From positions 4,898,001 to 4,962,000 of the forward strand of contig NZ_SRRO01000001.1 of NCBI RefSeq assembly GCF_004785795.1: a stretch of DNA of 64,000 nucleotides, given 5' to 3'. Of this stretch, positions 12,048 to 50,931 are shown piece by piece. How positions within the stretch are numbered: the stretch's first letter is position 1; every line of letters starts with the position of its first letter. Made by a program: the position numbers and the translations under genes. The notes beneath the pieces are model-generated. The model was not told where the DNA came from. It worked only from the letters and a program-made list of their open reading frames with translations, and ran no database searches. Origin of the DNA: Nocardioides eburneiflavus (GTDB lineage: Bacteria > Actinomycetota > Actinomycetes > Propionibacteriales > Nocardioidaceae).

Positions 12048-13499
12048 TCATCGTCGGCGGGGTCGTGGGATGCCAGGTGGGGCTGCCACATCCGGTGGTT
12101 CTGGTGGCTCGAGGTTGGTGGTGCCGGTGTGGTCGCGGCGGTAGCGGTGGCCGTGCGGTGAGGTCCACTCGAACACTCCGGGCGCGACCATGGCGTATCG
12201 CCAGGGTGAGTGGGTCTTGAGGCGGTGGTGGAACCGGCACAGGCAGGCCAGGTTGCTCGTGGTCGTCGGGCCGGGTTGCGGTCGGCCCTCGGCGTGGGCG
12301 TCGTCGTCCCACGGGATGATGTGGTCGCTGTCGCAGCGCCGTGCCGGGCGGGAGCAGAACGGGAACACGCAGGTGCGATCTCTCAGGATCACGTGTTCGC
12401 GGATCGTTGCCGGGACCTTCCGCGTCTGCGCGGTCAGCGTGGTGTTGAGGTCGATGACGGGCTTGATGGTGACCTCGGTGCGGGTGTCGGCGCACCAGGA
12501 CTGGACCTGCTCGAGCAGGACCAGGCGCTGGCCGTTCTCCATGCGGCCGGTGGGCCCGAACACGGTGGTGTCGCCGGAGAAGGAGGCGTCGACGTGGGCG
12601 TGGATCACGACCGCGCGGGCGGCGGGCAGGTGCGACTCGTCGGCGTCGCCGCCGCCAGCGCCGGTGTCCTCCAGGTCGGCGCCGCCGCCGGCGAGATCCA
12701 GAGCAGTCTGGGTCCGGGCGAGGTCACCGAGCGCCTTGGCCCGTCGGGCGTCGAGCGGCAGCAGCGACCCGAGGGCCTGCTGCTCCTTGGCCTTGTGGGC
12801 GAGGGCGCGGTCGAGGTCGAGGGCGTCGGCGATGTCGACCTCGGCCTCGATCCGCAGGGTGCCGGCGTAGTGCACGTCCTCGGTGTCGACGGTGACGTGG
12901 CGGGGGTCGACGTGCAGGTAGCCGTCCTCGGGGTCCTGCGCGGGGTCGGCGGTCGCGAGGTCGTAGCGCCTGATGGTCTCGGCGACGAGGCGGTCGAGCT
13001 GCGCGGACCCGACCCGCCCGGCGACGGCGGCGACCTGCGCGTCGACGAACCCGGCCGCCTCACGAGTCAACGCGGGTGAGGAGTGGATCGTGGTGTCCGC
13101 GATCGCCCGGGCCCGCCACGCGGGCACCTGCCCGGCGTGGACCTGTGCCCAGAGCCGGGGGAGGCGGTGGCGCAGCTCGAGGGCGTGGCCGATGAGCTTC
13201 TTCGCCGCGGTCGTGGTGATGCCGAGGGTGGTGCCGAGCTCGGCGCAACAGAACTCCGCCACCAGCGGAGCACCCTCCCCGGCGATGGGCTCCTCGTGCT
13301 GCGACCCCGACACCGTGAACGACGCTGCCGTGTGGATCGACTCCGGCGGGTGCAGGTCCGCCCACCGGGCGGCGAGAGCGAGCTGGCGGGCAGCCTCGGA
13401 GTTCTCGACGTCACGGGAGGCCTTGATCGTGGCGAGCAGGTCGGCGGGTGAGAGGTCGTCCGCGACCCCTCGTGCCCCGGCTGCCAGCGTCTCGATCAT
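12048..13499 (-). CDS. DUF222/HNH endonuclease-domain protein (13E12 repeat family)
   Basis: A 483-residue protein. Residues 1-330 are the helical DUF222 region (AEFCCAELGTTLGITTTAAK, LPRLWAQVHAGQVPAWRARA). The C-terminus, roughly residues 375-430, is an intact HNH nuclease: RDRTCVFPFCSRPARRCDSD, then HIIPWDD and LACLCRFHHRLKTH. The family is abundant in actinobacteria and some M. tuberculosis members are LexA-controlled. The start codon lies inside an SOS-box-like palindrome (13492-13507). An open frame continues upstream through cysM antisense but is not coding. Confidence 0.93.
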   Translation of the reverse strand: MIETLAAGARGVADDLSPADLLATIKASRDVENSEAARQLALAARWADLHPPESIHTAASFTVSGSQHEEPIAGEGAPLVAEFCCAELGTTLGITTTAAKKLIGHALELRHRLPRLWAQVHAGQVPAWRARAIADTTIHSSPALTREAAGFVDAQVAAVAGRVGSAQLDRLVAETIRRYDLATADPAQDPEDGYLHVDPRHVTVDTEDVHYAGTLRIEAEVDIADALDLDRALAHKAKEQQALGSLLPLDARRAKALGDLARTQTALDLAGGGADLEDTGAGGGDADESHLPAARAVVIHAHVDASFSGDTTVFGPTGRMENGQRLVLLEQVQSWCADTRTEVTIKPVIDLNTTLTAQTRKVPATIREHVILRDRTCVFPFCSRPARRCDSDHIIPWDDDAHAEGRPQPGPTTTSNLACLCRFHHRLKTHSPWRYAMVAPGVFEWTSPHGHRYRRDHTGTTNLEPPEPPDVAAPPGIPRPRRR

Positions 13500-13507
13500 G
13501 TGCTCGA
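13492..13507 (-). promoter_or_regulatory. SOS-box-like palindrome over the DUF222 start codon
   Basis: On the minus strand TCGAGCACATGATCGA matches 10 of 12 defined bases of the actinobacterial SOS box TCGAAC-N4-GTTCGA. The ATG of the gene lies inside it. The second DUF222 gene has a site in the same position (42693-42708). Confidence 0.6.
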
Positions 13508-13573
13508 TTGTAGTCGTCGGGTCCGACAGTTGGCCATGGCTGTGGACGGTTCGTGGCCCACGAGGTTGAACGT

Positions 13574-35491: not shown

Positions 35492-35882
35492 GGCGGTCTC
35501 CTTTGGCTACATACCGACGGTACGTACTTTCAGTATGCCCACCCGAGTCGTCGTCGTTCAAACGCCGCGGCCGTGAGTCGGGTCACCTGATATGTAGGTG
35601 CCTTCTGTCAAGGGGCATGGCGAGGCGCCCGTCCCCGTTGGTTGCGGGGCGGGCGCCTCTTGCTTCGTCGTCGTCCTCGCCTTGGCGAGCGTGTCTTCGC
35701 GACGCGCGGGTCAGACTGATATTCGCGGGTTGGGTACCGCAAGACGGGGTTTCGGCTGGAGCGTTTTCGCGTGTCTAGGGGCGAGCGTCGCCCGGCGTGC
35801 GCCGGACTGCTCATAGGTGAATCGCGGGTCGCTCCACGCGCTGCCACCAGGTGTGGTTGGCGACGAAGCAGATCGTGGGGTG
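35492..35882. other. 391-bp gene-free stretch with strong hairpins beside the IS110 transposase
   Basis: No coding frame with normal codon use is visible. It contains operator-like palindromes near 35512, GGGTCAC at 35580 that recurs at 37076, a strong hairpin at 35622-35659, a CTCGCC/GGCGAG hairpin near 35680 and a CCGGCG/CGCCGG hairpin near 35795. Most of it probably belongs to the 3' non-coding end of the insertion sequence, where IS1111-type elements encode a guide RNA. Confidence 0.5.
35622..35659. terminator. Strong hairpin 3' of the transposase
   Basis: GAGGCGCCCG pairs with CGGGCGCCTC, and an inner CCCCG/CGGGG stem closes a TTGGTTG loop with a single bulged base. It could be a terminator or part of a structured guide RNA of the IS110 element. 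Confidence 0.5.
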
Positions 35883-36971
35883 TTAGTCCATGACGGCCAG
35901 GGACCAGCACCAGCCGGCCAGCTCGCGAGCGATGGCCACGTTGGCGACGTTGTGGGTCTTACGGCGGTCGATGAACTTCACCCACCGCTGGTGCAGACGA
36001 CGGTTGCCCTCATCGCCGCGGACCCGTGCCTGGGCTGGGGCCAGGTCCCAGCGGTCGCGCAGAGCTTTCCCGACCAGGTAGCGGGCGCGGTGGTGCCAGG
36101 CGGCCTCGACCAGGAGCCGGCGCGCGTGGCCGTTGCCGGTCTTGGTGATCGACCCGCGGTTCTTCGACTCCCCCGAGGAGTGCTCGGTGGGGGTGAGACC
36201 GACGAAGGTGCCGATGGAGTTGCCGGTGAACCGGTGCCAGTCACCAATCTCGACCGCGAGCCCGAACCCGGTCAGGGTGCTGACCCCACGCAGACAGCCG
36301 AGCCGGCGCACGACGGGGGTGAACTCCGAGTCGGCGGCCATCTCCTCGATCGCGGCGTCGAGCCGGTTCCGTCGGGCCTTCACTGCGAGCACGGCCTCGT
36401 AGTCGTTGTCGAAGGTCAGCCGGGTCGCGGGCGCGGTCAGCTGGGGAAGCGCCTCGTGGCGCAGCCAGATGTCGTGCTTGCCGGTCCACGCCTGGCCGCC
36501 GTAGTAGACGATGCCGTGGCGCAGCAGCAGTTTCGAGAGCCGGTGCCGGGCCCGCATCAGATCGGCGCGGCAGTCCTCCCGGGCCCGGACCAGGTTGCGA
36601 GCGGCTTCCTGGTCCGGGGTCGGGATCGACACCGTCGTGATCTCGTCGAGGCGCAGGAGCTTGGCGAGATGGATGGCGTCCTTGGCGTCGGTCTTGACCC
36701 GATCACCCGCCGGTTTCTGCAGCTTCGACGGCGCGAGGACCTCGCACCGGATACCGGCAGCGGTCAGGTGCCGGTACAGCCCGAAACCGGTCGGCCCGGC
36801 CTCGTAGGCCACCGCCACCGATCCCGGCAAGCCGACCAGCCACGACTCGACATGCTCATAGGACGGGGTCAGCTTCGTCTGGAACAGCTCGCCCGTGACG
36901 CCATCGATCGCCGCTGCTGCGACAGATCGGGCGTGCACGTCGAGCCCAACACTCGTACGCTCGGTAAACAC
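35883..36971 (-). CDS. IS110-family DEDD transposase
   Basis: A 362-residue recombinase. The N-terminal RuvC-like domain has SVGLDVHARSVAAAA (D11) and the conserved KTDAKDAIHLAKLL near residue 100. The C-terminal Tnp domain has LRGVSTLTGFGLAVEIGDW, GTFVGLTPTEHSSGESKNRG and SITKTGNGHARRLLVEAAW. GGGAGG before the GTG at 36971 fixes the start, although the frame is open to 36986. It is full length and has no frameshift, so the element may be active. Confidence 0.95.
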   Translation of the reverse strand: MFTERTSVGLDVHARSVAAAAIDGVTGELFQTKLTPSYEHVESWLVGLPGSVAVAYEAGPTGFGLYRHLTAAGIRCEVLAPSKLQKPAGDRVKTDAKDAIHLAKLLRLDEITTVSIPTPDQEAARNLVRAREDCRADLMRARHRLSKLLLRHGIVYYGGQAWTGKHDIWLRHEALPQLTAPATRLTFDNDYEAVLAVKARRNRLDAAIEEMAADSEFTPVVRRLGCLRGVSTLTGFGLAVEIGDWHRFTGNSIGTFVGLTPTEHSSGESKNRGSITKTGNGHARRLLVEAAWHHRARYLVGKALRDRWDLAPAQARVRGDEGNRRLHQRWVKFIDRRKTHNVANVAIARELAGWCWSLAVMD

Positions 36972-36998
36972 CGGGGCCTCCCACAATTGTCGGATAGG

Positions 36999-37021
36999 CC
37001 GAGCAGGCAGCCCCTGCTCGG
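36999..37021. other. Perfect hairpin upstream of the transposase
   Basis: CCGAGCAGG and CCTGCTCGG form a perfect 9-bp stem with a CAGCC loop, 28 bp before the transposase start. It may be part of the left end of the element or its promoter control. Confidence 0.5.
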
Positions 37022-37106
37022 TAACCCACGAATCTTGTGAGTGAGGCCCCGGCCCGCAACCCCATCACGCCGAAGGGGTCACGTCATACCGTCTAGGCTG
37101 CGGGCC

Positions 37107-37763
37107 ATGAGGACCCGGCGTCAGCGCTTCTCCGACTCGACCAAGCGCGCGCTCGTCGACGTCGCCGAACGGCTCTTCACCGAGCACGGCTACTCCGCCA
37201 CGTCGCTGGACGCCATCGTGGCGGGCGCCGACGTCACCAAGGGCGCGCTCTACCACCACTTCAGCGGCAAGCAGGCGATCTTCGAGGCCGCCTTCGAGCG
37301 GGTGGAGTCGCGGGCGACGGCCGGCATCGCGCAGGCGACGGAGGGCCACCAGGACCCCTGGCTCAAGGCCCAGGCCGGCCTGCGTGCCTTCCTCGACGCG
37401 GTGCAGGAGCCGGGCTACCGCCAGATCGTGATCTCCGACGGCCCCTCGGTGCTCGGCCACGAGCGCTACCGCGAGCAGGAGGAGCGCTCGACGTACGCCA
37501 TCGTCGACGAGATCGTGCGTGCGGTCCTGACCGACACCGAGTGGGACCTCGACGACGCCATGCTCGACACCTTCACCCGGATCTTCTTCGGCGCCATGTC
37601 GGCCGCGGGCGGGTCCGTCGCGGTCAGCGAGGACGCCGCCACCGCGGCCTTGCGGGTCGAGGCCGCGATCGGGTTCATCATGGCCGGCCTCCAGCGACTG
37701 CTGGAGGACGGCACCGAGCCGCCCGACCCCGTTCGTAGGTCCGGGGCTACTTCGCGAACGTGA
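37107..37763 (+). CDS. TetR-family transcriptional regulator
   Basis: A 218-residue regulator. ALVDVAERLFTEHGYSATSL and VTKGALYHHFSGKQAIFEAA form the helix-turn-helix. A TAGGCT -10-like hexamer lies just before the ATG. The IS110 element sits directly upstream and may have separated it from a former neighbour, so no target is evident. The last 17 bp overlap the convergent DUF3048 gene. Confidence 0.92.
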   Translation: MRTRRQRFSDSTKRALVDVAERLFTEHGYSATSLDAIVAGADVTKGALYHHFSGKQAIFEAAFERVESRATAGIAQATEGHQDPWLKAQAGLRAFLDAVQEPGYRQIVISDGPSVLGHERYREQEERSTYAIVDEIVRAVLTDTEWDLDDAMLDTFTRIFFGAMSAAGGSVAVSEDAATAALRVEAAIGFIMAGLQRLLEDGTEPPDPVRRSGATSRT

Positions 37764-38769
37764 CGTTGCCGTTGACCGCTGGCACGAGCTCCATCCACAC
37801 GTGCCCGGCCGGGACCGTGAGCTCGCCGTCCTTGGTCGACAGCTCGATCGCGCCCTTCAGGCCGTCCTTGCTCCACGTGCCGCGGATGACGCGACCGCCG
37901 TGGAAGAGCAGCGCCGCGCCCTTGCCCTCGAGCTTGGTCTCGGGCACCGGGTAGCCGGCGGGGTCGCGGTAGCCGGCGTCGCCGACCTTGACCCGCAGCA
38001 CGAGGATCGAGTCGGCGGGGAACTGGTCGCCCTGGGCGGCGTAGGAGTCGGTGTTGACGTAGCCGCCCTTCTGGAACTGCCAGCTGGTGGAGTGCGCTCC
38101 GAAGTCGGCCGTGAGGGTGCGGGCCTTGCCGCCCCTGGGCAGGTCGGCCGGCGTGCCCCACGGCAGGTAGGGGGGCGGCTCGTCCTCGGCCTTGAGCCGC
38201 TTGGCGATGTCGCCGAGGCGGGCGAAGAGGTTGTAAGGGGCCGAGCGCGTGGTCTCGCGGTAGACCCCGGCGTCGCCCTCGGTGATCCACGGGATGCCGG
38301 CGCCGTTGATGCGGTTGATCGTGACCGGGGCGGCACCGCTCGTCACGACGGTCGCGCCGTCGGGGACGATGCCGATGTCGCTGGCGCGCATCGAGCGCAC
38401 CGGGCCGATGCTGGCCGGGACCTTGGAGTAGTAGAAGGCCGCCAGGCGGGTGTAGCCGCCCTCGACGAGCTCCTCGACGACGAGGTCGGCAGTGCCGAGC
38501 CCGACCTGCGGGGCGCTGGAGGACGTGTTGTCGACCTTGGTGACGATCACCGGGTGCTTGGGCGCCTTGCTCGTGCGCTCGAGGCCGGTGAGGGGCCAGT
38601 AGGTCGGCTCCGGCGGCTCGGAGGTCTCCGAGGCGGTGGGCTCCGACGGCTCGTCACCGGCCGGCGTCGCCTCGTCGTCCCCGCCGCTGCAGCCGGCGAG
38701 CACCAGCGACGCCGCCACGAGGACGGCGGCGACTGCCTTGTACGACGGGAGGTGGGGGCGGTGACGCAC
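37747..38769 (-). CDS. DUF3048 (YerB-like) lipoprotein
   Basis: A 340-residue protein with a lipobox (ASLVLAGC; Cys near residue 26) and an acidic Thr/Ser/Glu-rich linker. The DUF3048 domain is clear: PLTGLERTSKAPKHPVIVTK, PVRSMRASDIGIVPDGATVV and, near the C-terminus, GHVWMELVPAVNGNVTF. The family function is unknown. GGAG lies six bases before the GTG at 38769; an upstream in-frame start would cross the palindrome at 38814-38845. Confidence 0.88.
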   Translation of the reverse strand: MRHRPHLPSYKAVAAVLVAASLVLAGCSGGDDEATPAGDEPSEPTASETSEPPEPTYWPLTGLERTSKAPKHPVIVTKVDNTSSSAPQVGLGTADLVVEELVEGGYTRLAAFYYSKVPASIGPVRSMRASDIGIVPDGATVVTSGAAPVTINRINGAGIPWITEGDAGVYRETTRSAPYNLFARLGDIAKRLKAEDEPPPYLPWGTPADLPRGGKARTLTADFGAHSTSWQFQKGGYVNTDSYAAQGDQFPADSILVLRVKVGDAGYRDPAGYPVPETKLEGKGAALLFHGGRVIRGTWSKDGLKGAIELSTKDGELTVPAGHVWMELVPAVNGNVTFAK

Positions 38770-38813
38770 GGGGGGCTCCGTTCGAGCGGGGGATCTCTGC
38801 CTTGCAGTGTGGG

Positions 38814-38845
38814 GGCGCGCCTCCTCCGATCGGAGAAGGCGCGCC
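38814..38845. terminator. 32-bp palindrome between the NlpC/P60 and DUF3048 genes
   Basis: GGCGCGCC arms flank CTCCGATCGGAG with one mismatched pair, giving a 16-bp stem. It lies about 50 bp after the NlpC/P60 stop and 45 bp before the DUF3048 start, so it may terminate the former or regulate the latter. Confidence 0.5.
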
Positions 38846-38896
38846 ACAGGGTAGATCAGCCGGGACTGCCTACCAATCCGAGCCTGTCACGGGGAT

Positions 38897-39454
38897 TCAG
38901 GCGCGACGCAGGGTGCCGCCGAACCACTGCGAGGTCCATGGCACGGCGACCCGGACCCGGTCGCCGGAGCCCGGCGCGTGCAGCATGACGGCGTGCCCGC
39001 GCGACCAGCGCAGGAAGATCGCGGCGTGGTAGACGCCGCCGCTGCCGTGGAAGAACATCAGGTCGCCGGCGCGCATGTCCTTCTTCGCGACGCGGCGGGC
39101 GTGACCGGCCTGGGCGCTCGACGTACGGGGCACGTCGAACCCGGCACGGGAGTACGCGTAGCGGATCAGCCCGGAGCAGTCGAAGCGGTGCGGCCCGGCA
39201 GCGCCGTAGCCGTACGCGTCGCCGCGCTGCCGCATCGCGACGTCGCGGGCGCCGAGGACGCGCTGTGCGACGCGGCGCTTGGCGCTGAGCCGGGTCTTCT
39301 GGGAGGTCGTGGTGGTGACCTGGTCGGTGTCGCCGGCTGCGGTGTCGGCGTCGCCGGCGGCGGTGGCGGGCAGGGCCGTCAGCGTCGAGGCGGTGACGCC
39401 GAGACCGGCGAGGGCGAGCGCGCAGGCTCGCGCCGTACGAGTGGTCGCAGGCAT
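38897..39454 (-). CDS. Secreted NlpC/P60 peptidoglycan hydrolase
   Basis: A 185-residue protein with a signal peptide (ACALALAGLGVTASTLTALP). The catalytic domain covers residues 70-185: C93 in HRFDCSGLIRYAYSRAG, H143 in GGVYHAAIFL, with DMRAGDLMFFHG between. It should cleave peptide stems in the cell wall. AAAGGAA eight bases before the ATG supports the start. A ydaO-type riboswitch lies directly upstream. Confidence 0.93.
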   Translation of the reverse strand: MPATTRTARACALALAGLGVTASTLTALPATAAGDADTAAGDTDQVTTTTSQKTRLSAKRRVAQRVLGARDVAMRQRGDAYGYGAAGPHRFDCSGLIRYAYSRAGFDVPRTSSAQAGHARRVAKKDMRAGDLMFFHGSGGVYHAAIFLRWSRGHAVMLHAPGSGDRVRVAVPWTSQWFGGTLRRA

Positions 39455-39469
39455 GGAGTGTTCCTTTCC

Positions 39470-39620
39470 CACGCCTGCGGGGTGAGCTGTCGGGTTGGGA
39501 CTGGAAGGTGTCCCGCCGCGCACTCCGAGACGGGCGCGGCTTCACCCCGAGCCGACATGTGTCGGCGTGGAACCTGTGGGTCCCCCACTCCTGCCCTCGT
39601 GACTCGGGGGTACGTCCCGG
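39470..39620 (-). promoter_or_regulatory. ydaO/yuaA (c-di-AMP) riboswitch
   Basis: Read on the minus strand the leader contains the conserved blocks GGCAGGAGTGGGGGACCCA, then CTCGGGGTGAAGCCG, and finishes with CCCGACAGCTCACCCCGCAGG shortly before the ribosome-binding site. These blocks and their order are diagnostic of the ydaO class, which in actinobacteria often precedes cell-wall hydrolase genes and shuts them off when c-di-AMP is high. The outer ends are approximate. Confidence 0.9.
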
Positions 39621-39703
39621 TCGGGCAGGACTCGGCGTAGCCCGGGACGGATCGGTCTCCCGATCGCGATCCAACGTGGCAGGGGCCTCGCCCGGATGCA
39701 AAG

Positions 39704-39737
39704 CCGGCCACGGTCCCGAGCGTGGGACCGTGGCCGG
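39704..39737 (-). terminator. Terminator after the fabG-like gene
   Basis: A perfect 14-bp stem (CCGGCCACGGTCCC / GGGACCGTGGCCGG) with a six-base loop, followed on the minus strand by CTTT. It lies 30 bp beyond the reductase stop and isolates it from the riboswitch. Confidence 0.8.
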
Positions 39738-39766
39738 GATCACGCAGATCCACGCTCGTCAGGGGC

Positions 39767-40534
39767 TCAGCCGAGCTTGCGGCCTCCGTCGACGTACAAC
39801 GTCTGCCCGGTGATGAACGACGCCTCGTCGCTGCACAGGAACGCCGCGGCCGCGGCGATGTCCTCGGGCTGGCCGACGCGGCGGACGGGGGTGGCCTCGG
39901 CGTTGAGACGCTGGAGCTCCTCGGGCTCGAGCTTGAGCCGGCGCGCGGTGGCGTCGGTCATCTCGGTGACGATGAAGCCGGGCGCGATGGCGTTGGCGGT
40001 GATGCCGAAGGGGCCGAGCTCGATGCCCAGGGTGCGGGTGAGGCCCTGGATGCCCATCTTGGCCGCGGAGTAGTTGGCCTGGCCGCGGTTGCCGAGGGCG
40101 GAGACGCTGGAGAGGTTGAGGATCTTGCCGTACTTCTGCTCCACGAAGCGCGACTGCGCGGCCTTGGTCATGTTGAAGACGCCCTTGAGGTGGACGCCCA
40201 TGACCACGTCCCAGTCCTCCTCGGTCATCTTGAAGAGCAGGTTGTCGCGGGTGACGCCGGCGTTGTTGACCAGCACGTGGATACCGCCGAGCTCGTCGAC
40301 GACGCGCTGGACGGCGGCCTCGGCGGCGGCGGAGTCCACGACGTCGCAGCCGACGCCGATGGCACGCGCCCCGTCGGTGAGCTCGAGGCGGGCGGCCGCC
40401 TCCTGCGCGGCGGCCTCGTCGAGGTCGAGGATCGCGACGGACGCGCCCTCGCTGGCCAGGCGCTGGGCGATGCCGAAGCCGATGCCTCGTGCTGCTCCGG
40501 TGATGACGGCGACGCGACGGTCGTAGCGACCCAT
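39767..40534 (-). CDS. Short-chain dehydrogenase, FabG-like 3-oxoacyl-ACP reductase
   Basis: A 255-residue SDR enzyme. The cofactor motif TGAARGIG is at 12-19, NNAG in HVLVNNAGVTRDN, the catalytic Ser in ILNLSSVSALGNRG and Tyr/Lys in ANYSAAKMG; APGFIVTEMT is typical of FabG-type reductases. NADP(H) preference and substrate are not certain. It is monocistronic and ends in a strong terminator. Confidence 0.88.
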   Translation of the reverse strand: MGRYDRRVAVITGAARGIGFGIAQRLASEGASVAILDLDEAAAQEAAARLELTDGARAIGVGCDVVDSAAAEAAVQRVVDELGGIHVLVNNAGVTRDNLLFKMTEEDWDVVMGVHLKGVFNMTKAAQSRFVEQKYGKILNLSSVSALGNRGQANYSAAKMGIQGLTRTLGIELGPFGITANAIAPGFIVTEMTDATARRLKLEPEELQRLNAEATPVRRVGQPEDIAAAAAFLCSDEASFITGQTLYVDGGRKLG

Positions 40535-40663
40535 GTGAACGGCTCCTCGGGCTGGGTGACTGGGGCTCGGGTGACGGGCTGTCCCGGGAGGATCTCATGA
40601 GAGTTGTGGAGATCCGGCACAGGGACGCGACGTACGGGCCGAGGTGTGACTAGCGTGGCGCGC

Positions 40664-41728
40664 ATGGGTCGGGGGGACTTCCGAGGCGCAGCCGCAGTGG
40701 CGGCCGCGATGGCCGTGGCGACGCTGGTGGTCGCCGCGGCGTACGACCTGCCCGTGCGGGACCCCGACGGGGTCTCGGTCCCGACGTGGGTGCGGCTGCC
40801 GCTCATCGTGCTGGCCGCCGTGCTGCTGGACGTCGTCGCGCGGTGGGTGCTGGCGCTGCGGGGTCGCGAGGGTCCGGTCACCGTGTCGGACGCGAGGTCG
40901 GTGCTGCGGTCGGTGGTGGTCGCACGCTGGGACCTGGCCCAGGTCCGTTTCACCCTGAGCGGCCTGCTGGCGTGGTACGTCGCCTACGTCGCATTCCGCA
41001 ACCTCAAGGGCTACCTGCCGTTCGTCAACGAGCGCCTGTGGGACACCGAGCTCGCGCGGCTGGACCGTGTCCTGTGGCTGGGCCACGACCCCGCCGCCGT
41101 GCTGCACGAGGTGCTGGGCACGGGCTGGGCGGCCTGGCTGATGTCGGGCGTCTACGTGCTGTGGATCGGACTCGTGCCGGCGGCCCTCGCCGTCGCGCTG
41201 GTGTGGACGCGGCGCTCGCTCGCCGGCGAGCTCTACGTCACCGCCATCTCCTTCAACTGGCTGCTCGGGGTGGCGGTCTACTACCTGGTGCCGTCGCTCG
41301 GCCCGGTCTACTCCCGTCCGCAGGGGTTCGCCGACCTCTCCCCCACCTTCAACACCCGGGTGCAGGAGTGGCTGCTGCAGGACCGCGTCGACGTCCTCGC
41401 CGGCGCGTGGGACACCAGGGCCGTCCAGACCGTGGCCGCCTTCGCCTCGCTGCACGTGGCCATCACGGTGACCACCTGCCTGGTCGCGGAGGTGCTGCGG
41501 CTGCCGTCGTGGGTGCGCGTCACGTGCTGGACCTTCGCCGTGCTCACGTCGGTGTCGACGGTCTACCTGGGTTGGCACTTCTTCGTCGACGTCCTGGGCG
41601 GAGCGGTCGTCGGGGACGTCGCGCTCGTGCTCGCCGCCACGGCGACCGGTCACCCCTTGCGGCGCGAGCGCGTACGCCCGCGTGACGTCGTCGCGGACGT
41701 GGACCGCGAGCAGGCCGGGCGGGCCTAG
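40664..41728 (+). CDS. PAP2-superfamily membrane phosphatase
   Basis: A 354-residue protein with six to seven spans. It matches the inositolphosphotransferase-like PAP2 branch: PSLGPVYSRPQGF, AAFASLHVAITVTTCL (motif with active-site His) and TVYLGWHFFVDVLGGAVVGD (second catalytic His and Asp). It probably acts on lipid phosphates. The ATG at 40664 precedes the first span. Its last 4 bp overlap the convergent HIT gene. Confidence 0.88.
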   Translation: MGRGDFRGAAAVAAAMAVATLVVAAAYDLPVRDPDGVSVPTWVRLPLIVLAAVLLDVVARWVLALRGREGPVTVSDARSVLRSVVVARWDLAQVRFTLSGLLAWYVAYVAFRNLKGYLPFVNERLWDTELARLDRVLWLGHDPAAVLHEVLGTGWAAWLMSGVYVLWIGLVPAALAVALVWTRRSLAGELYVTAISFNWLLGVAVYYLVPSLGPVYSRPQGFADLSPTFNTRVQEWLLQDRVDVLAGAWDTRAVQTVAAFASLHVAITVTTCLVAEVLRLPSWVRVTCWTFAVLTSVSTVYLGWHFFVDVLGGAVVGDVALVLAATATGHPLRRERVRPRDVVADVDREQAGRA

Positions 41729-42174
41729 CTGAGGGGCCGGCCCTCGGGCCGGCCGTCGGGCCGGCCGTCGAGTGCCGCGCGGAGACGGGCGGCGTACGTC
41801 TCGGGCTCGCCTGCGGCGTACTTCGTGCGGGGCCAGAAGAAGCCGCGCAGGCCGTCGCCCTTGGTGCGCGGCACGACGTGCAGGTGCAGGTGCGGCACGG
41901 ACTGGCTCACCGTGTTGTTGACGGCGACGAAGGAGCCCTGGGCGCCGAGCCCGTCCTTGACCGCGGTCGCGATGCGTTGGGCGGCGAAGAGGAACGGGTC
42001 GCGCAGCGCCGCGGGGAGGTCGGGCAGGGTCTCGACGTGGTCGCGCGGCACGAGCAGGACGTGGCCCTTGAAGACCGGGCGGGTGTCGAGGAAGGCGACC
42101 AGGTCGTCGGTCTCGAGGACGAGGTGGCCGGGCACGTCTCCGGCGACGATCTGGCAGAACACGCATCCGTCCAC
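41725..42174 (-). CDS. HIT-family nucleotide hydrolase or transferase
   Basis: A 149-residue protein. DGCVFCQIVAGDVPGHLVLE gives the N-terminal CxxC zinc half-site, and HLHLHVVPR is the histidine triad. The C-terminus is a short repeat, GRPDGRPEGRPLS, from a 12-bp tandem repeat. Substrate unknown; related enzymes hydrolyse AMP-linked compounds. Confidence 0.93.
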   Translation of the reverse strand: MDGCVFCQIVAGDVPGHLVLETDDLVAFLDTRPVFKGHVLLVPRDHVETLPDLPAALRDPFLFAAQRIATAVKDGLGAQGSFVAVNNTVSQSVPHLHLHVVPRTKGDGLRGFFWPRTKYAAGEPETYAARLRAALDGRPDGRPEGRPLS

Positions 42175-42199
42175 GGACGGATCGTCGCACGCGGGTCGA

Positions 42200-42571
42200 T
42201 CAGGCGTTCAGGACCGCCCAGGCGATGAGCTTGTCGAGCCGGCGGATGTCGATCTTCTTGTCGAGCTTGATCTTGATGTGCCCCGCCCGTGTCCACATCT
42301 CGAGCTCGGCGTTGAAGTCGAGCAGCTTGCCGGCGTTCTCGGACGACCACATGTCGATGCGGCTGTAGGGAAGTGAGTAGACCTCCACCTTCTTGCCCGT
42401 GAGCCCTTGGGCGTCGCGCACGACCAGGCGCTTGGTGGTGAAGATCGCTGAGTCCCGGAAGGTCTTGTAGGCCGCGACGGCCTGCTCTCCGTCGACGAGG
42501 AGGTCGTTGACGTCGGCGGGGACGGGGATCTCCTGGAGGAGGGTCCATGACGTGATCGCTGCGGTTTCCAT
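42200..42571 (-). CDS. Small bacterial PH-domain protein
   Basis: A 123-residue protein: DGEQAVAAYKTFRDSAIFTT then KRLVVRDAQGLTGKKVEVYS and the ending LDKLIAWAVLNA follow the bacterial PH-like (bPH) pattern. No membrane segment. Function unknown. The ATG at 42571 is preferred; an upstream start would add 15 residues. Confidence 0.85.
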   Translation of the reverse strand: METAAITSWTLLQEIPVPADVNDLLVDGEQAVAAYKTFRDSAIFTTKRLVVRDAQGLTGKKVEVYSLPYSRIDMWSSENAGKLLDFNAELEMWTRAGHIKIKLDKKIDIRRLDKLIAWAVLNA

Positions 42572-42692
42572 GCGCGAGAGCGTCGCAGACGACAGGGCCG
42601 GCGCGTCGCGGATCACGCAACTTCGACAAGGTGGTCCTGATGGTCCGCGCGACCCATCCGCAGCGGGTCACTGTCGGTGGCGATCCCTACCA

Positions 42693-42708
42693 TCGAACAC
42701 ATGACCGA
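42693..42708 (+). promoter_or_regulatory. SOS-box-like palindrome over the second DUF222 start codon
   Basis: TCGAACACATGACCGA matches 10 of 12 defined bases of TCGAAC-N4-GTTCGA, with a perfect left half. The ATG at 42701 lies in the spacer and right half, just as in the gene at 12048-13499. Confidence 0.6.
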
Positions 42709-44149
42709 CACCCTCCCCGGGCTCGACGCGACCGGCCTCCTGGCTGCCGCGAGCGAGGCCGTGCGCGGGCGCCGGCTGGCCGAGGTCCGCGACCTCGAAG
42801 TCCTCGCCCAGTGGGCAGTGGTCCACTCCACCGACCCCACCGAGGGGCCCGACGGCGCACAGGCCCGACGTCTCGGTGACGTGCTGGTCCAGCTCGGCGG
42901 CGAGGGCACACCGGGTGTGCAGGACTTCTGCCTCGGTGAGATCGCGATCGCCCGGGGCACGGGCGTCACCGCCACCACCAACGCGCTGGCCGACGTGCTC
43001 GACCTCCAGCACCGGCTGCCGGCGACCTGGGCGATCGTCCGATCCGGCGAGGCGGAGGTCTACATCGCCCGACGGGTCGCGCGGCTCACGCGCCACCTGC
43101 CCGCCGACCGCGTCGGCGTCGTCGATAGCGCGGTCGCGAGGATCATCGCCCACGAGGCAGGCGGGCGGGTGCTCGCCGTCGCCGAGGGCAAGGTCATCGA
43201 GGCCGACCCGGCCCTGCACGACGAGCGCGTCGAGGCGGAGAAGGCCCGTCGCTACGTCGGCTCCGGGCGCACCGACGAGTACGGCCTGCGCACCGTGATC
43301 GCGCGCATCGAGGCCGGTGACGCCGTGTGGGTCGAGGCGACCGTGCAGCGGGCGGCCGACATCCTTGCTCCCACCCACCCCGAGGTCGGCGCCGACGAGC
43401 TGCGCGCCATCGCCTTCGGCCACCTCGCCCGCCCGGCCGAGCTCCTCCAGCTGCTCCTCGAGCACACCGACGACACCCTCCCCGGCACCGAACCGGCCGA
43501 GCCCGACCAGCCCGACCAGCCCGACCAGTCCTCGAGTCGTGCGACCGCGTTCCCCGCCGACCTCCTCGACGCTCTGCGCTCCCTCGACCTCACCCCGCTC
43601 GCACCGAAGGCCGTGCTGCACGTCCACCTCCACGAGGCGGCACTCGCCGGCGCCGATGCCGTCGCCCGGGTCGAGGGGCTCGGACCGACCTCCGTGTCCG
43701 CGCTGTGCGCGTTGCTGGGCCGCGCCCGGTTGACCGTACGTCCGGTGCGAGACCTGTCGTCGCGGGTGCGCACCACCGCCTACGAGCACCCCGAGTCCCT
43801 CAAGGAGCAGGTCTACCTGACGACCGGCGGGGACTACTGGCCCTTCGCCAGCTCCACCAGCCGCCGGGTCGACTACGACCATCCCACTCCCTACGACGAC
43901 ACCGGCCCACCCGACCCGAAGCATCCGCAGACGGGGTCGCACAACTCCGGCCCACTCGGCAGGCGGCACCACCGTTGGAAGACGCACGCCGGCTACCGAT
44001 CACGCCAGTGCGGCCAGGGCCGCTATGTCTGGCTGAGCCCGCACGGGCTGGCCTTCAACGTCGACCACCGCGGAACCCGCGGCATCGATCCCCACCACGC
44101 GCGGGAGATCCTCGAGGCGCCGCCGGGCGTCGACCTCTACTTCACCTGA
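42701..44149 (+). CDS. DUF222-family protein with a variant HNH region
   Basis: A 482-residue protein. The DUF222 part has DFCLGEIAIARGTGVTATTN and LPATWAIVRSGEAEVYIARR. A linker holds a 9-bp tandem repeat (PDQPDQPDQ). The C-terminus keeps an HNH-like core (VDYDHPTPYDDTG, then GRRHHRWKTHAGY) but lacks the CxxC pairs seen in the paralogue at 12048-13499. It may therefore be a diverged or non-zinc nuclease. The start lies in an SOS-box-like site. Confidence 0.9.
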   Translation: MTDTLPGLDATGLLAAASEAVRGRRLAEVRDLEVLAQWAVVHSTDPTEGPDGAQARRLGDVLVQLGGEGTPGVQDFCLGEIAIARGTGVTATTNALADVLDLQHRLPATWAIVRSGEAEVYIARRVARLTRHLPADRVGVVDSAVARIIAHEAGGRVLAVAEGKVIEADPALHDERVEAEKARRYVGSGRTDEYGLRTVIARIEAGDAVWVEATVQRAADILAPTHPEVGADELRAIAFGHLARPAELLQLLLEHTDDTLPGTEPAEPDQPDQPDQSSSRATAFPADLLDALRSLDLTPLAPKAVLHVHLHEAALAGADAVARVEGLGPTSVSALCALLGRARLTVRPVRDLSSRVRTTAYEHPESLKEQVYLTTGGDYWPFASSTSRRVDYDHPTPYDDTGPPDPKHPQTGSHNSGPLGRRHHRWKTHAGYRSRQCGQGRYVWLSPHGLAFNVDHRGTRGIDPHHAREILEAPPGVDLYFT

Positions 44150-44177
44150 GCAGCTCGACCGTGGGTCCTGGGTGGCC

Positions 44178-44911
44178 TCAGGCCGAGCAGTCGAAGGTGG
44201 GGTCCAGCTCGCTGGGCCCGGGCGCAGCAGGCCCCGTCCCGCGAGCACGGGTCCGAACAGGTAGGCCAAGGCATCCAGGTCGCACTGGGAGAACAGCGGG
44301 TCCGGGGCGTCGCCGATCCAGCCGTACCCCATCAGGTCGGTGCTCTCGAGCAGGTTGGTGGCGTGGCCGAGGCCGAGTGCGTGGCCCAGCTCGTGGAGCG
44401 TCACGTAGTACAGGTACTCCGGCGTGTAGCTCTCCTCGGTGGCGAACTCCGAGGACACGATGATGTTGCCGCAGCCCGTGGCCCCGCAGATCGCGTACCC
44501 GGCGAAGACGACCCCGCCTGCGTGCGGCACGTAGTGCAGGACGATGTCGGCGGACCTGCGCTTGGAACCCGTCACGTCCGTCAACGTGATCTCCCCGTCG
44601 AAGCACGAGCGGAGCACCTCGTCCCACGACTCGATGGCGTCGCGCACGGCGGCGAGATGAGCGTCGGAGACGTTGGGCGCGGCCTGCACGCCGACCGTGA
44701 GGTGCGTGTCGTCCCACACGTACTTGTTGGGGTAGTAGTAGTTGAGGATCACCAGCTCCTCGGCGTCGGACTCGGGCAGGTTGCAGTCCACACCGCTGCC
44801 CGCGGTCGATCCCGGCTTGGCCGACGTCGCGGGCGCAGCCGCCAGGCCGAGGCTGCCCAGCAGGAAGGCCAGCAGGAGGGCCAGCACGAGGAGAAGTCGT
44901 CGGATGCTCAT
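44178..44911 (-). CDS. Secreted matrixin-like metalloprotease, frameshifted near the C-terminus
   Basis: About 244 residues with a signal peptide (LLLVLALLLAFLLGSLGLAA). The zinc site is LHELGHALGLGH, followed by TDLMGYGW, a Met-turn, as in metzincins. Up to the CCCGGGCCC run at 44214-44222 one frame is used; after it codon use switches to a frame ending SELDPTFDCSA at 44178, while the unshifted frame continues with poor codon use to 44000 across the DUF222 gene. One missing base explains this. Confidence 0.8.
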
Positions 44912-45106
44912 CGCGCGCTCCAGGGCGGTCGGGGGAGCTCGACCGAGAGCAGGCTCCCGGGGGGATCTCGACGCTACGCCGCCGGGACAGCATCGGGAAG
45001 AGCCGGCGCGCCCGCTCGTGCCGAGGACCACGCGACAGGGGGCGAGTTGGCGCGTTCTGCCACGCGCGCGCCCAGCCGGTGTGACCCTTGAGGAGTCAGC
45101 ACCATC

Positions 45107-45824
<718 letters not shown>

Positions 45825-45842
45825 CGCCGTAGCCTCGCCGTC

Positions 45843-46361
45843 GTGATCCTCCCGGCCGTCCGCGATCCCCGTCTGGTCACGGTCCGCCGGGGCGGCACGC
45901 TGACCGACGAGGGCCACCACGCCCTGGCCCTGTGGGCGGCCGCGTGCGCCGAGCACGTCCTCCCGCTCTTCGAGGGCTCCCGCCCCGACGACACCCGCCC
46001 CCGCGAGGCGATCGCCGCCGCGCGGGCCTGGACGCGCGGCGAGCTCTCGATGAGGCGTACCCGCGCCCTCGGCGGGCACGCGATGGGTGCCGCGCGCGAC
46101 TTGACCGGCGCGCCCCGCTTCGCCGCGTACGCCGCCGGGCAGGCCGCGGTCGTCGCTCACGTCGCCGAGCACGACCTCGGCGCGGCGGCGTACGCGATCA
46201 AGGCGGCGATGGCAGCCGCTCCGGGGCAGGAGGAGACGGTGCGCCACGCGGAGTGCCGCTGGCAGCACGACCGGCTTCCCGCGACGGTGCGCGAGCTGGT
46301 GCTGGAGGACCAGCAGCGGCGCAACCCGATCTGCTGGAACGTGTTCGACCCTCCATCGTGA
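45843..46361 (+). CDS. Putative immunity protein (Imm5-like)
   Basis: A 172-residue helical protein: RDPRLVTVRRGGTLTDEGHH then ALALWAAACAEHVLPLFEG, and a second half of ARAWTRGELSMRRTRALGG and AHVAEHDLGAAAYAIKA. This matches proteins annotated as Imm5-like immunity proteins. No toxin gene is seen nearby, so it is an orphan. It starts 18 bp after the nuclease stop, but a toxin-immunity link is not supported. Confidence 0.7.
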   Translation: MILPAVRDPRLVTVRRGGTLTDEGHHALALWAAACAEHVLPLFEGSRPDDTRPREAIAAARAWTRGELSMRRTRALGGHAMGAARDLTGAPRFAAYAAGQAAVVAHVAEHDLGAAAYAIKAAMAAAPGQEETVRHAECRWQHDRLPATVRELVLEDQQRRNPICWNVFDPPS

Positions 46362-46464
46362 ACAACGGTCGTGAGGAAAGGGCGTGGCCGACGCAACCTT
46401 CCACCGACGGCGGGAGTCTGGAGGGGTGGGACGGCACCACGGGGGTGCGGGGTGAGGGGGTGGC

Positions 46465-47064
46465 ATGTTCTCGGGGACCGACAGGCAGGCACCCACGTTC
46501 GAGGAATACGCCGCCGTCTCCTGGCCGATGGTCTACCGCAGCGCCTACCTGCTGGCCGGCAACCACGCGGATGCCGAGGACCTGGCCCAGCAGGCGCTGA
46601 TCAAGGCCCACCGTGCGTGGGCCAGGGTGAGCGCCTCTGACTCGATGAACGCCTACGTGCGACGGATCCTCACCAACACGTTCCTCTCCTCCAGGCGGCC
46701 GAAGGCGCGCCGGTTGGAGCTGCTGACCGACGAGCTCCCGGACTGGGGCGGCGCCGCCAGCGCGGCCGGGCGCCCCGCGGATACGCCGGGGGCGTCCGAC
46801 GAGCTGATGGCGGTGTGGCCGCACGTCAAGCAGCTGCCGCGCCAGCAGCGCGCGGTCACCGTGCTGCGCTACTTCGAGGACCTGAGCGAGGCGGAGATCG
46901 CCGAGGCGCTCGGCTGCTCCCGCGGCACCGTGAAGTCCACGGCCCACCGCGCCCTCAAGAGCCTGAAGGCCGCGCTCGACGACCAGGACAGCCCGGCTTC
47001 CGACAGCCCGGCTTCCGACAGCCCAGCGTCCGACAGCCCAGCGTCCGGCAGGAAGGAGGCCTGA
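46465..47064 (+). CDS. SigE-family ECF RNA polymerase sigma factor
   Basis: A 199-residue sigma factor. Region 2: FEEYAAVSWPMVYRSAYLLA and HADAEDLAQQALIKAHRAW; region 4: LPRQQRAVTVLRYFEDLSEA and GCSRGTVKSTAHRALKSLK. The C-terminal tail is four copies of DSPAS from a 15-bp tandem repeat (46987-47046), an unusual feature. The next gene follows after one base and encodes its likely membrane partner. Confidence 0.93.
   Translation: MFSGTDRQAPTFEEYAAVSWPMVYRSAYLLAGNHADAEDLAQQALIKAHRAWARVSASDSMNAYVRRILTNTFLSSRRPKARRLELLTDELPDWGGAASAAGRPADTPGASDELMAVWPHVKQLPRQQRAVTVLRYFEDLSEAEIAEALGCSRGTVKSTAHRALKSLKAALDDQDSPASDSPASDSPASDSPASGRKEA
46987..47046 (+). repeat. Four 15-bp tandem repeats in the sigma factor gene
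   Basis: GACAGCCCGGCTTCC occurs twice, followed by two copies of GACAGCCCAGCGTCC, each encoding DSPAS. Unit number could vary between strains without a frameshift. Confidence 0.9.
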
Positions 47065-47065
47065 C

Positions 47066-48211
47066 ATGCACGAGGACATCGAGAGGATGCTGCGGACCGA
47101 GCTGCGTCAGGTCGCCGACGGCGTCGAGGTCCCGCCCGCGCCGGTGCTGGCCTCCCGACCGACGTCGCGCTTCGCCTGGCCACCGGTGCTGGCGGTCGCT
47201 GCCGCCGTCGTGCTGATCGCGCTGGTCGTCCTCGTGGGTGGCCCGTCCGACCGGGGCGGCCTGCCCCAGCCGGCCCCCCAGCCGACCGACGTGGTCACCG
47301 ACGTGACCGACCCGTTGCCGGAGGCGGTGCCCACCGGGCGGCCCCGGGTGCCGTACGTGCTCGACCGGGTGGCGTACGTCGGCGACGACTCGTTCCCCGG
47401 CTTCGACGCGATCGACGGGACCGCCCAGGGCTGGCTGGCGGTGGAGCCGCCGTTCGTGTGGTCGTGGGGCAACGGCGGAGCGCCGAGGGGGCTGGACGTC
47501 GCCGTCGAGCAGCCGCCGGTCGTGTCACCCAACGGTCAGTTCATCGCCTACCTCTCCAGCGAGGGCGACCTGAACGGGTTCCAGACCGCACCCGACGGCG
47601 AGGGGATGGGCCTGCCCGTGCCGGTCCCCGTCCGGGACGACGACGGTGTCGGCACCCGCATCGGAGCCGTCACCGACGACGGCTGGGTGATCGCGAGCGG
47701 CCGGGGTGTCGGCGTCCTGTGGCGCCCCTTCGACGGCGCCGAGCCGGTCGACCTGACGCGGACGGCGCCCGGTCAGCTGGTGTGGAAGGCGACGCGTGCG
47801 GGTCTGGTGGTCGTCGACGGCAGCGGCGACGCCCGCGACCCGGGCGGCGACAACCGGGTCGCGGGCGACGGCCGGGTCTACCTGGCCGACCTGACGCCCG
47901 ACGGCGAGCTGACCCCGATCGTCGACCTGCCCCACTTCGGGATCGCCGACGTCAGCGAGGAGTGGGTGGCGTGGGTGCCCCTCGAGCCGGTCGGGGGCGA
48001 GGTGGCCACGTTCGAGGAGATCCTCGTGCGTGACCTCGACGGCGGGAGCCAGGGCGCGCTCTCGGCGCCGCGGGGATGGCGCTTCATCAACACGGACTTC
48101 ACCTTCGAGGACGCCCAGTTCCTCGTCGCCCGGGTGACCGACGGCCAGCAGCAGCGGATGACGCGCTGCAGCCCAGCGCTCCAGGAGTGCGTGCTGCTCG
48201 AGGCCCCCTGA
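47066..48211 (+). CDS. Membrane-anchored protein with extracytoplasmic beta-rich domain, sigma factor partner
   Basis: A 381-residue protein. About 35 cytoplasmic residues (MHEDIERMLRTELRQVADGV) precede one membrane span (PPVLAVAAAVVLIALVVLV), then a Pro-rich linker and a domain with propeller-like repeats such as PPVVSPNGQFIAYLSSEGD and IGAVTDDGWVIASGRGVGV. The arrangement is that of an anti-sigma or sensor protein, but no zinc-binding anti-sigma motif is visible. Coupled to the sigma factor by one base of spacing. Confidence 0.8.
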   Translation: MHEDIERMLRTELRQVADGVEVPPAPVLASRPTSRFAWPPVLAVAAAVVLIALVVLVGGPSDRGGLPQPAPQPTDVVTDVTDPLPEAVPTGRPRVPYVLDRVAYVGDDSFPGFDAIDGTAQGWLAVEPPFVWSWGNGGAPRGLDVAVEQPPVVSPNGQFIAYLSSEGDLNGFQTAPDGEGMGLPVPVPVRDDDGVGTRIGAVTDDGWVIASGRGVGVLWRPFDGAEPVDLTRTAPGQLVWKATRAGLVVVDGSGDARDPGGDNRVAGDGRVYLADLTPDGELTPIVDLPHFGIADVSEEWVAWVPLEPVGGEVATFEEILVRDLDGGSQGALSAPRGWRFINTDFTFEDAQFLVARVTDGQQQRMTRCSPALQECVLLEAP

Positions 48212-48241
48212 GGTCCGGGCCGGGACGTCTAGGCTCTCCCG

Positions 48242-49114
48242 GTGCGCATCGTCTCGCTGATCCCCTCCGCAACCGAGATCCTGTTCGCCGTCGGTGCGGG
48301 CGACGACGTCGTGGGCGTGACGTTCGAGTGCGACCACCCCGCTGAGGCCCGGGAGCGGCGCGTCGTCTCGACGTCCGCGATGTCGGAGGGACTGACGCCG
48401 AAGGAGATCGACGACTTCGTCGCGGCAGCCATGTCGGCTGGTGAGGACCTCTACCGCCTCGACGCCGGAGCCCTCGCCGACCTCGACACGGACCTCGTCG
48501 TCACCCAGGACCTCTGCGCCGTCTGCGCGATCGACGTGACCACGGTCGACGAGGCGCTGCGCCACCTGGGCTGTCGGGCCGAGGTGGCGACGGTCGACCC
48601 GCACACCCTCGACGACGTGCTGGCGTCCGTGACCGAGATCGGCCGCTTGACCGGGCGGTCGGCCCGGGCGACGGCGCTCGTCGCCTCGCTCGAGGGACGG
48701 CTCGCGGCCGTGGCCGACCGGGTGGCGGGTCGCGTGCGGCCGCGCGTGCTGGTGCTCGAGTGGACCGACCCGCCGTTCGCGCCGGGCCACTGGATCCCGG
48801 AGATGGTGACCTCCGCCGGCGGTGAGCCGACTCTCGGCGTCGCGGGCACGAAGTCGACCCGCATCTCGTGGGACGAAGCCGTCGACTCGGCTCCGGACCT
48901 CGTCGTCTGCGCCCCGTGCGGCTACGACCTGGACGGCGCGGCCACGCTCGCGGAGGACGTACGCCACCGCTTCCCCGGCGTGCCCGTGTGGGCGGTGGAC
49001 GCCGACGGACACTTCGCCCGACCGGGACCGCGGCTCGTGGACGGGGTCGAGGTGCTGGCCGGGATCCTTCACCCGGACGCCGCGGAGCCCTCGCCGTACG
49101 CCCGGCAGGTCTGA
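48242..49114 (+). CDS. BtuF-like cobalamin- or siderophore-binding protein without signal peptide
   Basis: A 290-residue periplasmic-binding-protein fold of the helical-backbone class: MRIVSLIPSATEILFAVGAG, DLVVTQDLCAVCAIDVTTVD and HWIPEMVTSAGGEPTLGVAG. Unlike true transport proteins it has no signal peptide, and no ABC permease lies nearby, so it may be a cytosolic member with another role. The GTG start at 48242 begins directly with the first strand. Confidence 0.85.
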   Translation: MRIVSLIPSATEILFAVGAGDDVVGVTFECDHPAEARERRVVSTSAMSEGLTPKEIDDFVAAAMSAGEDLYRLDAGALADLDTDLVVTQDLCAVCAIDVTTVDEALRHLGCRAEVATVDPHTLDDVLASVTEIGRLTGRSARATALVASLEGRLAAVADRVAGRVRPRVLVLEWTDPPFAPGHWIPEMVTSAGGEPTLGVAGTKSTRISWDEAVDSAPDLVVCAPCGYDLDGAATLAEDVRHRFPGVPVWAVDADGHFARPGPRLVDGVEVLAGILHPDAAEPSPYARQV

Positions 49115-49123
49115 CGACCGCCG

Positions 49124-49623
49124 TCAGCGCGTCTCGTCGCGGACGAGGACGTCGAACGGCCGCCCGTCCCGACGGGCTGCGAACGACCCGACCACCTCGA
49201 AGCCGAGGGACTCGACCGTACGACGTGCCCGCGCGTTGAACGACGCGACGGTCACGCGGAAGGCTGCCGGCGCGTAGCGGTCTCGGCCGTACGCCAGCCC
49301 GGCGGCGATCGCGGCCCGGCCCAGGCCCTGGCCGGTCAGCGACGGGCGCAGCCCTCCCCGGTGTCGAGGGCGGTGTCGTCGTAGTCCCAGCCGGGCACGC
49401 GACCGTCGGGGCCGAAGGACCGGAAGCCGATCAGCCGCTCGCCCGCCAGCACCGCGTGGAAGCCCAGCGCGGGGTCGAGCAGGTCATCGGGCGCGGCGCC
49501 TGTCATGTCGTAGACGTCGTAGGGCGGGTCGTAGCGCCAGGTCACCATGTCCTCGGCGTGGGCCCGGGTCAGCGGGACGATGCGGAGGGCGCCGGAGTCG
49601 ACGGGATCGGGCACGACCGGCAC
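49124..49623 (-). CDS. GNAT-family acetyltransferase, frameshifted
   Basis: About 166 residues. The N-terminal frame (LRIVPLTRAHAEDMVTWRYD, LDPALGFHAVLAGERLIGFR) stops after GEGCARR at 49336; the other frame continues LRPSLTGQGLGRAAIAAGLA, the acetyl-CoA loop, then FNARARRTVESLGFEVVGSF. One base is missing in a G run near 49352. With it restored the length is normal for GNAT enzymes. Substrate unknown. Confidence 0.8.
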
Positions 49624-49627
49624 CCTC

Positions 49628-50251
49628 TCACGACGCCAGTGGGCGGAGGCGGAAGACGAGGATGCCGAAGTAGGTGTCCATCCACTCCTGCTTGTGAGGG
49701 TAGCGGCGGCGCGCGTCCTCCGACAGCTGCGGCTCGGCGGCCGCCTCGACCCACAGCCCGGCTGCGCTGAAGGTGTTGAGCAGGTCGGAGACGGTGTAGG
49801 TCCGCTTGGTGAGCGTGACGTCCTCGTGCCACCGCGTGCGGTAGGTGTGGGCGGAGGAGGAGAAGTACTCCTCGGCGAGCGACGTGCCGTTCTGCTCGGC
49901 GCGCTCGGTGGCGTAGCGCAGGGGCTGCGTCCTGGTCAGCACGATGAACCCGTCGTCGGCGAGCATCGATCGCGCCGACCGCAGGGTCGCCACTGGGTCC
50001 GTGGCGTAGCCGAAGGACTGCAGGAGGAGGATCCGGTCGAAGGTGCGCCCGGCGAGCCCGGGCAGGGCGCCGAGGTCGTTGAGGTCGCCCTGCCCGAGCT
50101 CCAGCCCGCGTGGCCTCGCGTCGACGAATGCGCCGCTGCCGTCGACCCCGACAGAGCCGGCCGCTCCGTCCTCGACCAACTCGGCGAGCTTGGCGCCGTC
50201 CGCGAGCTCCGCCCACGCCCGGCCCGGATCCTCAGACTCCGGGCCGCTCAC
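49628..50251 (-). CDS. Class I SAM methyltransferase-like protein, first motif not evident
   Basis: A 207-residue protein. SVGVDGSGAFVDARPRGLEL, RTFDRILLLQSFGYATDP and SARSMLADDGFIVLTRTQPL correspond to the second half of a class I methyltransferase fold. The glycine-rich motif I that should precede GVDGS is not recognisable: only about 30 residues lie before it. Either the protein is diverged or part is lost. The GTG start overlaps the upstream GNAT stop as GTGA. Confidence 0.75.
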   Translation of the reverse strand: MSGPESEDPGRAWAELADGAKLAELVEDGAAGSVGVDGSGAFVDARPRGLELGQGDLNDLGALPGLAGRTFDRILLLQSFGYATDPVATLRSARSMLADDGFIVLTRTQPLRYATERAEQNGTSLAEEYFSSSAHTYRTRWHEDVTLTKRTYTVSDLLNTFSAAGLWVEAAAEPQLSEDARRRYPHKQEWMDTYFGILVFRLRPLAS

Positions 50252-50912: not shown

Positions 50913-50931
50913 CCAAGAGGGCTGTGCGCAG

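Follow-up and report, generated by a model that had tools for sequence, protein, structure and literature searches.

Two DUF222-family genes in one stretch of Nocardioides eburneiflavus DNA (64,000 nucleotides, here called the window) appear to begin inside palindromes that resemble the box bound by LexA, a DNA-binding repressor. This raises the question of how an operator that overlaps a start codon might act, and whether such a fusion of operator and gene start accompanies the family elsewhere.

Two gene starts within LexA-box-like palindromes

An earlier, sequence-only reading of the window had called both genes DUF222 genes. This holds for the gene at 12048–13499, which passes the Pfam cut-off for DUF222 (PF02720; 28.4 bits against 24.4) and whose HNH score of 16.2 bits falls under the Pfam cut-off of 21.4, with the motif residues and cysteines present. 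The 42701 gene, in contrast, matches neither DUF222 (PF02720) nor HNH in Pfam; yet its protein is ~30–32% identical to DUF222-positive genes of its own genome (E down to 2.7e-36), and, judged by this pairwise homology, the gene is a diverged relative of the family. In its HNH region the D-x-D-H, N and HH residues are kept and the cysteines are gone, a combination shared with a gene at L040:1492–2943, the two belonging to a DUF222-related subgroup that escapes Pfam. No PDB relative of DUF222 was found at E ≤ 0.01. The two window genes are presumed nucleases, one of the two proteins being without the HNH cysteines.

Table 1 Features of the two gene starts in the window.
Feature	Position	Strand	Remark
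DUF222 gene, 483 aa (L016)	12048..13499	-	HNH-like C-terminal region
Diverged DUF222-family gene, 482 aa	42701..44149	+	HNH cysteines lost
LexA-box-like palindrome TCGAACACATGACCGA	42693..42708	+	overlaps +1 and start codon of the 42701 gene
LexA-box-like palindrome TCGAGCACATGATCGA	13492..13507	-	overlaps +1 and start codon of the 12048–13499 gene
PafBC-type promoter element TGTCGG, 42701 gene	42672..42677	+	10 nt ahead of the −10
−10-like hexamer TACCAT, 42701 gene	42688..42693	+	final T also opens the box
PafBC-type promoter element TGTCGG, 12048–13499 gene	13523..13528	-	spacing as at 42672
−10-like hexamer TACAAT, 12048–13499 gene	13507..13512	-	

The palindromes are present as that reading described them, each matching 10 of the 12 defined bases of TCGAAC-N4-GTTCGA and each holding the ATG at the same place, at offset 8. 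A LexA operator consensus is found at the promoters of both window genes: the 42693 site is a full match to the Streptomyces venezuelae consensus tCGAAC-N4-GNNCGa, and the only one in the window, and the 13492 site departs from it at one position. The further claim that the upstream sequences differ outside this block fails directly upstream, where both genes carry ACTGTCGG-N10-TACNAT in the same register. These elements, TGTCGG-N10-TACCAT for the 42701 gene and TGTCGG-N10-TACAAT for the 12048–13499 gene, conform to the PafBC motif TGTCGG-10N-TA-3N-T given in the available text of PMC8151990. At both genes the −10 hexamer and the box overlap by one base, a T that ends the former and opens the latter, and the ATG lies 7 nt past the −10, as expected of a leaderless promoter.

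Homology and promoter geometry together point to these ATGs as the starts of both genes, with earlier start codons in the same open frames at 42677 (42701 gene) and 14309 (12048–13499 gene); the ATG at 42701 is probably a leaderless start. By count alone the boxes do not stand out in the window (five two-mismatch matches against 2.25 expected, with 10 of 100 shuffles reaching five), and this non-significant window-only count was dropped as evidence. The significance of the box derives instead from its position at gene starts and its occurrence in other genes.

Occurrence of the arrangement in the genome, the genus and the class

The genome that contains the window (5.0 Mb) has 22 Pfam matches to DUF222. 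Adding relatives of the 42701 protein gave 34 frames, or 32 distinct genes once a contig-end copy had been removed and a split gene counted once. In 15 of these 32 a box with ≤2 mismatches lies over the start codon, five more carry a 0–1-mismatch box at another promoter position, and a convincing box is missing from 12. Among the five, L005–L007 have a box that adjoins the −10, TTGAC lying upstream and the gene start downstream of it, and L041 and L042 have the box ahead of the −10; within this family, its placement at the promoter takes three forms. Matches with ≤2 mismatches near L002, L003, L004 and L022, and second ones at L016 and L017, did not enter the count of promoter boxes. L040, whose identity to the 42701 protein is 70–71%, still has the PafBC-type promoter but no box.

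The class A copies, a group that includes the 12048–13499 gene and L017, are 84–93% identical to L017 in this genome, for which reason paralogues were set aside as sole proof and cross-genome tests were used. Two of the 15 genes (L020, L049) have a boxed ATG out of frame with the downstream DUF222 match and L061/L067 is split, these class A copies being either decayed or affected by sequencing errors. Just upstream of the promoter, the 12048–13499 gene (at ~13566–13640, minus strand) and L017 have another repeat in common, perhaps an interspersed one. The region 32700–52214 of the window, and with it the 42701 gene, is found a second time, with 99.9% identity, where the same contig begins (C1:1–19504); either this is an overlap left by the assembly or the region is truly duplicated.

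Genome-wide, TCGAACN4GTTCGA at ≤1 mismatch occurs at 37 places against 11 for the reversed pattern, and TCGAACN4GNNCGA occurs 71 times, strands counted apart, against 22, its places including ten distinct DUF222 genes. The single lexA gene (C1:1654786–1655445) has its own box of the same motif, TCGAACAGGTGTTTGA, upstream, and adjacent ORFs form a pafB–pafC pair (E 1.2e-56 for PafB and 1.5e-39 for PafC against solved PafBC chains; Pfam HTH_PafC). Several LexA-type boxes in a cluster (L036, C1:1657854–1657937), together with a PafBC-type element, also precede a LysM/YneA-like gene (YneA model 2.7e-12, under its cut-off), and one box of this cluster, TCGAACGCCTGATCGA, has the GATCGA half seen in class A.

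Nineteen named Nocardioides genomes supplied 80 class A loci for assessing conservation within the genus; 78 of these loci were used (L147 and L165 fail to align from residue 1). Upstream columns −52 to −34 hold at most 0.5 bit each, and the columns of the block, namely TGTC (−29 to −26), TA...T (−13 to −8), TCGAAC and ATG-ATCGA, hold about 1.7–2.0 bits; coding sequence beyond the block is also partly conserved. TCGAACN4GNNCGA is matched in 67 of the 78 genes, TGTC at −29 in 74, TANNNT at −13 in 77, and all three in 63. The base following the ATG is A in 76 genes, where the classical box has T, and the right half departs from GTTCGA in 77. N-termini read MIE (50), MID (21), MSE (4) or otherwise (3), codon 3 being GAN with its third base free.

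Across Actinomycetes, DUF222 was detected in 90 of 118 sampled genomes (E ≤ 1e-6). We took 142 genes from the best-scoring matches listed, a sample in which strong Pfam matches and family f5 (53 of 142) are over-represented; their upstream regions comprise 113 from 119 listed places (after per-genome limits and a contig-end rule) and 30 loci, less one without upstream sequence. In these genes from 19 families, a box without mismatches lies within 500 bp upstream of 34 (reversed control 0), one with ≤1 mismatch upstream of 76 (control 1) and one with ≤2 mismatches upstream of 87 (control 3). At least one gene with a ≤1-mismatch box is present in 13 of the 19 families, and 66 of the 142 genes have no such box in that range. 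The enrichment of the palindrome at DUF222 starts that the sequence-only reading had looked for is thus found, here as in the window's own genome.

An in-frame start falls inside a ≤2-mismatch box in 46 of the 142 genes, in register 8 (n = 29), register 6 (n = 14) or register 4 (n = 3). Register 4 was left out, as a later start looks likelier there, and the resulting set of 43 includes three GTG cases from family f19 (L287, L288, L291) and L233 (f26) in which the true start is, by eye, more likely downstream. In this set TGTC peaks exactly at −29 (24 of 43) and TANNNT exactly at −13 (26 of 43), the −10 ends 6–7 nt ahead of the start in 31, and 40 of the 43 contexts are distinct. Between the two registers the box slides by 2 bp and the distance from −10 to ATG is constant. 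N-termini are MFE (12), MFD (5), VFD (5) and similar in register 8, and MSS (7), MRS (4) and other M-x-S in register 6. With TGTC at the PafBC spacing in 24 of 43, PafBC is no universal partner of in-box starts. Twelve families have Pfam-confirmed DUF222 genes that combine a −10 with a start inside the box (f1, f5, f7, f10, f13, f15, f17, f19, f21, f28, f29 and f34).

The reverse search, with a pattern containing the −10, box and ATG and no protein information (TANNNTCGAACNNATGNTCGA), found matches in 79 of 394 genomes, with one match in the table for the reversed control. Thirty loci were fetched, and 23 were scanned after leaving out seven whose ORF at the ATG is <100 aa; 17 of the 23 ORFs are DUF222, one is HNH only, one is a UvrD helicase and four have no family. 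Of the 119 rows listed outside Nocardioidaceae, 115 have T as the free base by hand count; within Nocardioidaceae (n = 30) it is A in 24, T in 5 and C in 1. Among the 17 DUF222 genes, TGTC lies near the PafBC position in 7, TTGA/TTGC lies near −35 in 7, and 3 have both; an operator fused to the start thus also occurs without the PafBC element. A corresponding search for register 6 was uninformative, since TCGAACATGTGTTCGA is TCGAACACATGTTCGA on the opposite strand. The UvrD helicase gene (L356 in G074, minus strand, ATG at 1508) starts inside a perfect SOS box, right after a −10-like hexamer, which shows that the fusion extends beyond DUF222.

LexA as the candidate repressor and competing readings

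We consider it likely that, at each window gene, a PafBC-type promoter, a leaderless transcription start on or beside the ATG and a LexA operator lying over the −10, +1 and first codons are fused within ~37 bp. In the undamaged cell, LexA would cover the −10 and +1 and block RNA polymerase. Upon damage, RecA would trigger LexA cleavage, PafBC, which is activated by ssDNA (PMC11804915, available text), would bring polymerase to the promoter where its element exists, and transcription would begin at the ATG. Since the operator would reach into the coding sequence, it would also constrain residues 2–3, which read MFE/MFD in many families, MIE/MID in Nocardioides and M-x-S in the second register. 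Binding of LexA and PafBC, leaderless transcription and damage induction are what this arrangement predicts for the window genes.

The identification of the palindrome with a LexA site draws on lexA itself, present in 112 of 118 genomes. A ≤1-mismatch box was found ≤400 bp before the gene in 30 of 30 regions from the best-scoring 30 lexA loci (control 0 of 30). At the position where class A has A, T is found in all 70 of the boxes preceding lexA (selected at ≤1 mismatch), so the affinity of LexA for class A sites may be reduced. The ChIP consensus of S. venezuelae, tCGAAC-N4-GNNCGa, leaves the base after the ATG position free, and Table 1 of the same paper includes a damage-induced gene with TCGAACGTTTGACG, which is outside the sites marked as validated by SPR (PMC9380542, available sections). 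The sequence-only reading had named 13E12-family genes of Mycobacterium tuberculosis as members of the LexA regulon, and HNH genes of this family are indeed published as LexA targets (PMC4181829, PMC5005354, as far as their available text goes); five putative HNH endonucleases are also described as induced by mitomycin C in a RecA-dependent manner in the accessible part of PMC8151990. Binding of LexA to the class A sites is accordingly a prediction.

The class A palindrome could instead be a relic, or merely a favourable context for the −10 and start codon, in a promoter that answers to PafBC and does not bind LexA. The near-universal departure of its right half from GTTCGA and the L040 promoter, which lacks a box, fit such a history. 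However, the ChIP-derived consensus is still matched in 67 of the 78 class A genes, 0–1-mismatch boxes lie at other promoter positions in further DUF222 genes of the window's genome, and the free base is T in nearly all rows listed outside Nocardioidaceae; on balance we find this unlikely. Another repressor might also occupy the palindrome, for example an ArsR-type regulator, whose motif resembles the mycobacterial LexA motif (PMC8151990, in the text available), or the DUF222 protein as its own regulator, a thought encouraged by the way the box accompanies the family into many lineages. This is improbable when the same box precedes lexA in 30 of 30 regions, precedes the LysM/YneA-like gene and covers the UvrD start.

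Shared ancestry without selection, in which paralogues were copied together with their promoters, would account for the close identity of the class A copies to L017. It is very improbable: across 19 Nocardioides genomes the block is fixed and the upstream DNA randomised, two registers share one distance from −10 to ATG, and the box is kept while codon 2 varies (F, I, S, T, M-x-S). The sequence-only reading had placed repression at the translation start itself, as an ATG inside a palindrome might indeed suggest. Yet LexA represses by binding DNA. The distance from −10 to ATG is, moreover, fixed at 7 nt, and since this makes +1 and ATG coincide, the step blocked would be the initiation of transcription, with the box over the −10 and +1 of a probably leaderless promoter whose transcription start is the start codon; repression of translation initiation is scarcely credible.

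Relation to known damage-response systems

LexA control of the fused start, as favoured here, has its closest counterpart in the LexA regulon of M. tuberculosis, whose 13E12 HNH genes belong to the same protein family and have the same box, TCGAAC-N4-GTTCGA (PMC4181829, PMC5005354, PMC8151990, available portions). In the available text of these accounts, a box over the start codon, leaderless starts and PafBC elements are unmentioned, whereas all three are proposed here. In M. tuberculosis, transcription and translation of lexA, itself regulated by LexA, begin at the same point, a leaderless start like those suggested for the window genes; a box over the start codon is not described for this gene in the accessible sections of that paper (PMC2897130). 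PafBC, or RecA-NDp, promoters have the same spacing, TGTCGG-10N-TA-3N-T (PMC8151990, available text), to which the present genes add a LexA operator and a leaderless ATG. Dual control is likewise known from M. smegmatis, where recA has two separate promoters, P1 under PafBC and P2 under LexA (PMC11804915, in its available part); here both elements are in one promoter.

LexA control of the 13E12 family in M. tuberculosis is thus already known, and the fused architecture is what we did not find described. Our literature search did not find the fusion of operator and leaderless start (with or without PafBC), the two registers or the spread across the class, for which an earlier report in Davis 2002 or in Smollett's LexA ChIP work is possible. 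By title, DUF222 regulation is absent from the papers found on DUF222, and DUF222/13E12 from those found on the SOS box and leaderless genes.

We are evenly divided on a broader proposal, that DUF222-HNH genes hold a self-contained damage switch. Its LexA operator would also be coding, supplying the start codon and constraining the residues that follow. It would come in two registers, shifted by 2 bp with the distance from −10 to start unchanged, and would often be joined to a PafBC promoter. Whenever a gene is copied or transferred, the ~37-bp block would travel with it and place it from the outset under one or both damage responses, which may help to explain why the family is so amplified in Actinomycetes. 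If this is true, an abundant family of unknown function would be under damage control in many actinobacterial families, beyond LexA in M. tuberculosis, and both known damage pathways would frequently act on it. A repressor operator would at the same time be part of a coding sequence, tying operator evolution to the protein N-terminus. The arrangement provides a rule for placing the starts of DUF222 genes (−10, seven bases, ATG inside the box) and makes the role of the family testable, since damage should turn the genes on.

The promoter type also occurs outside this setting. TGTCGG-N10-TANNNT-N7-ATG was matched in 300 of 394 Actinomycetes genomes, whereas the reversed control gave roughly a dozen matches in all, which suggests that leaderless PafBC-type promoters may be widespread in the class. 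Among the rows listed for them the box is, by eye, rare. The special step at the genes described here is the addition of an operator to a leaderless PafBC-type promoter.
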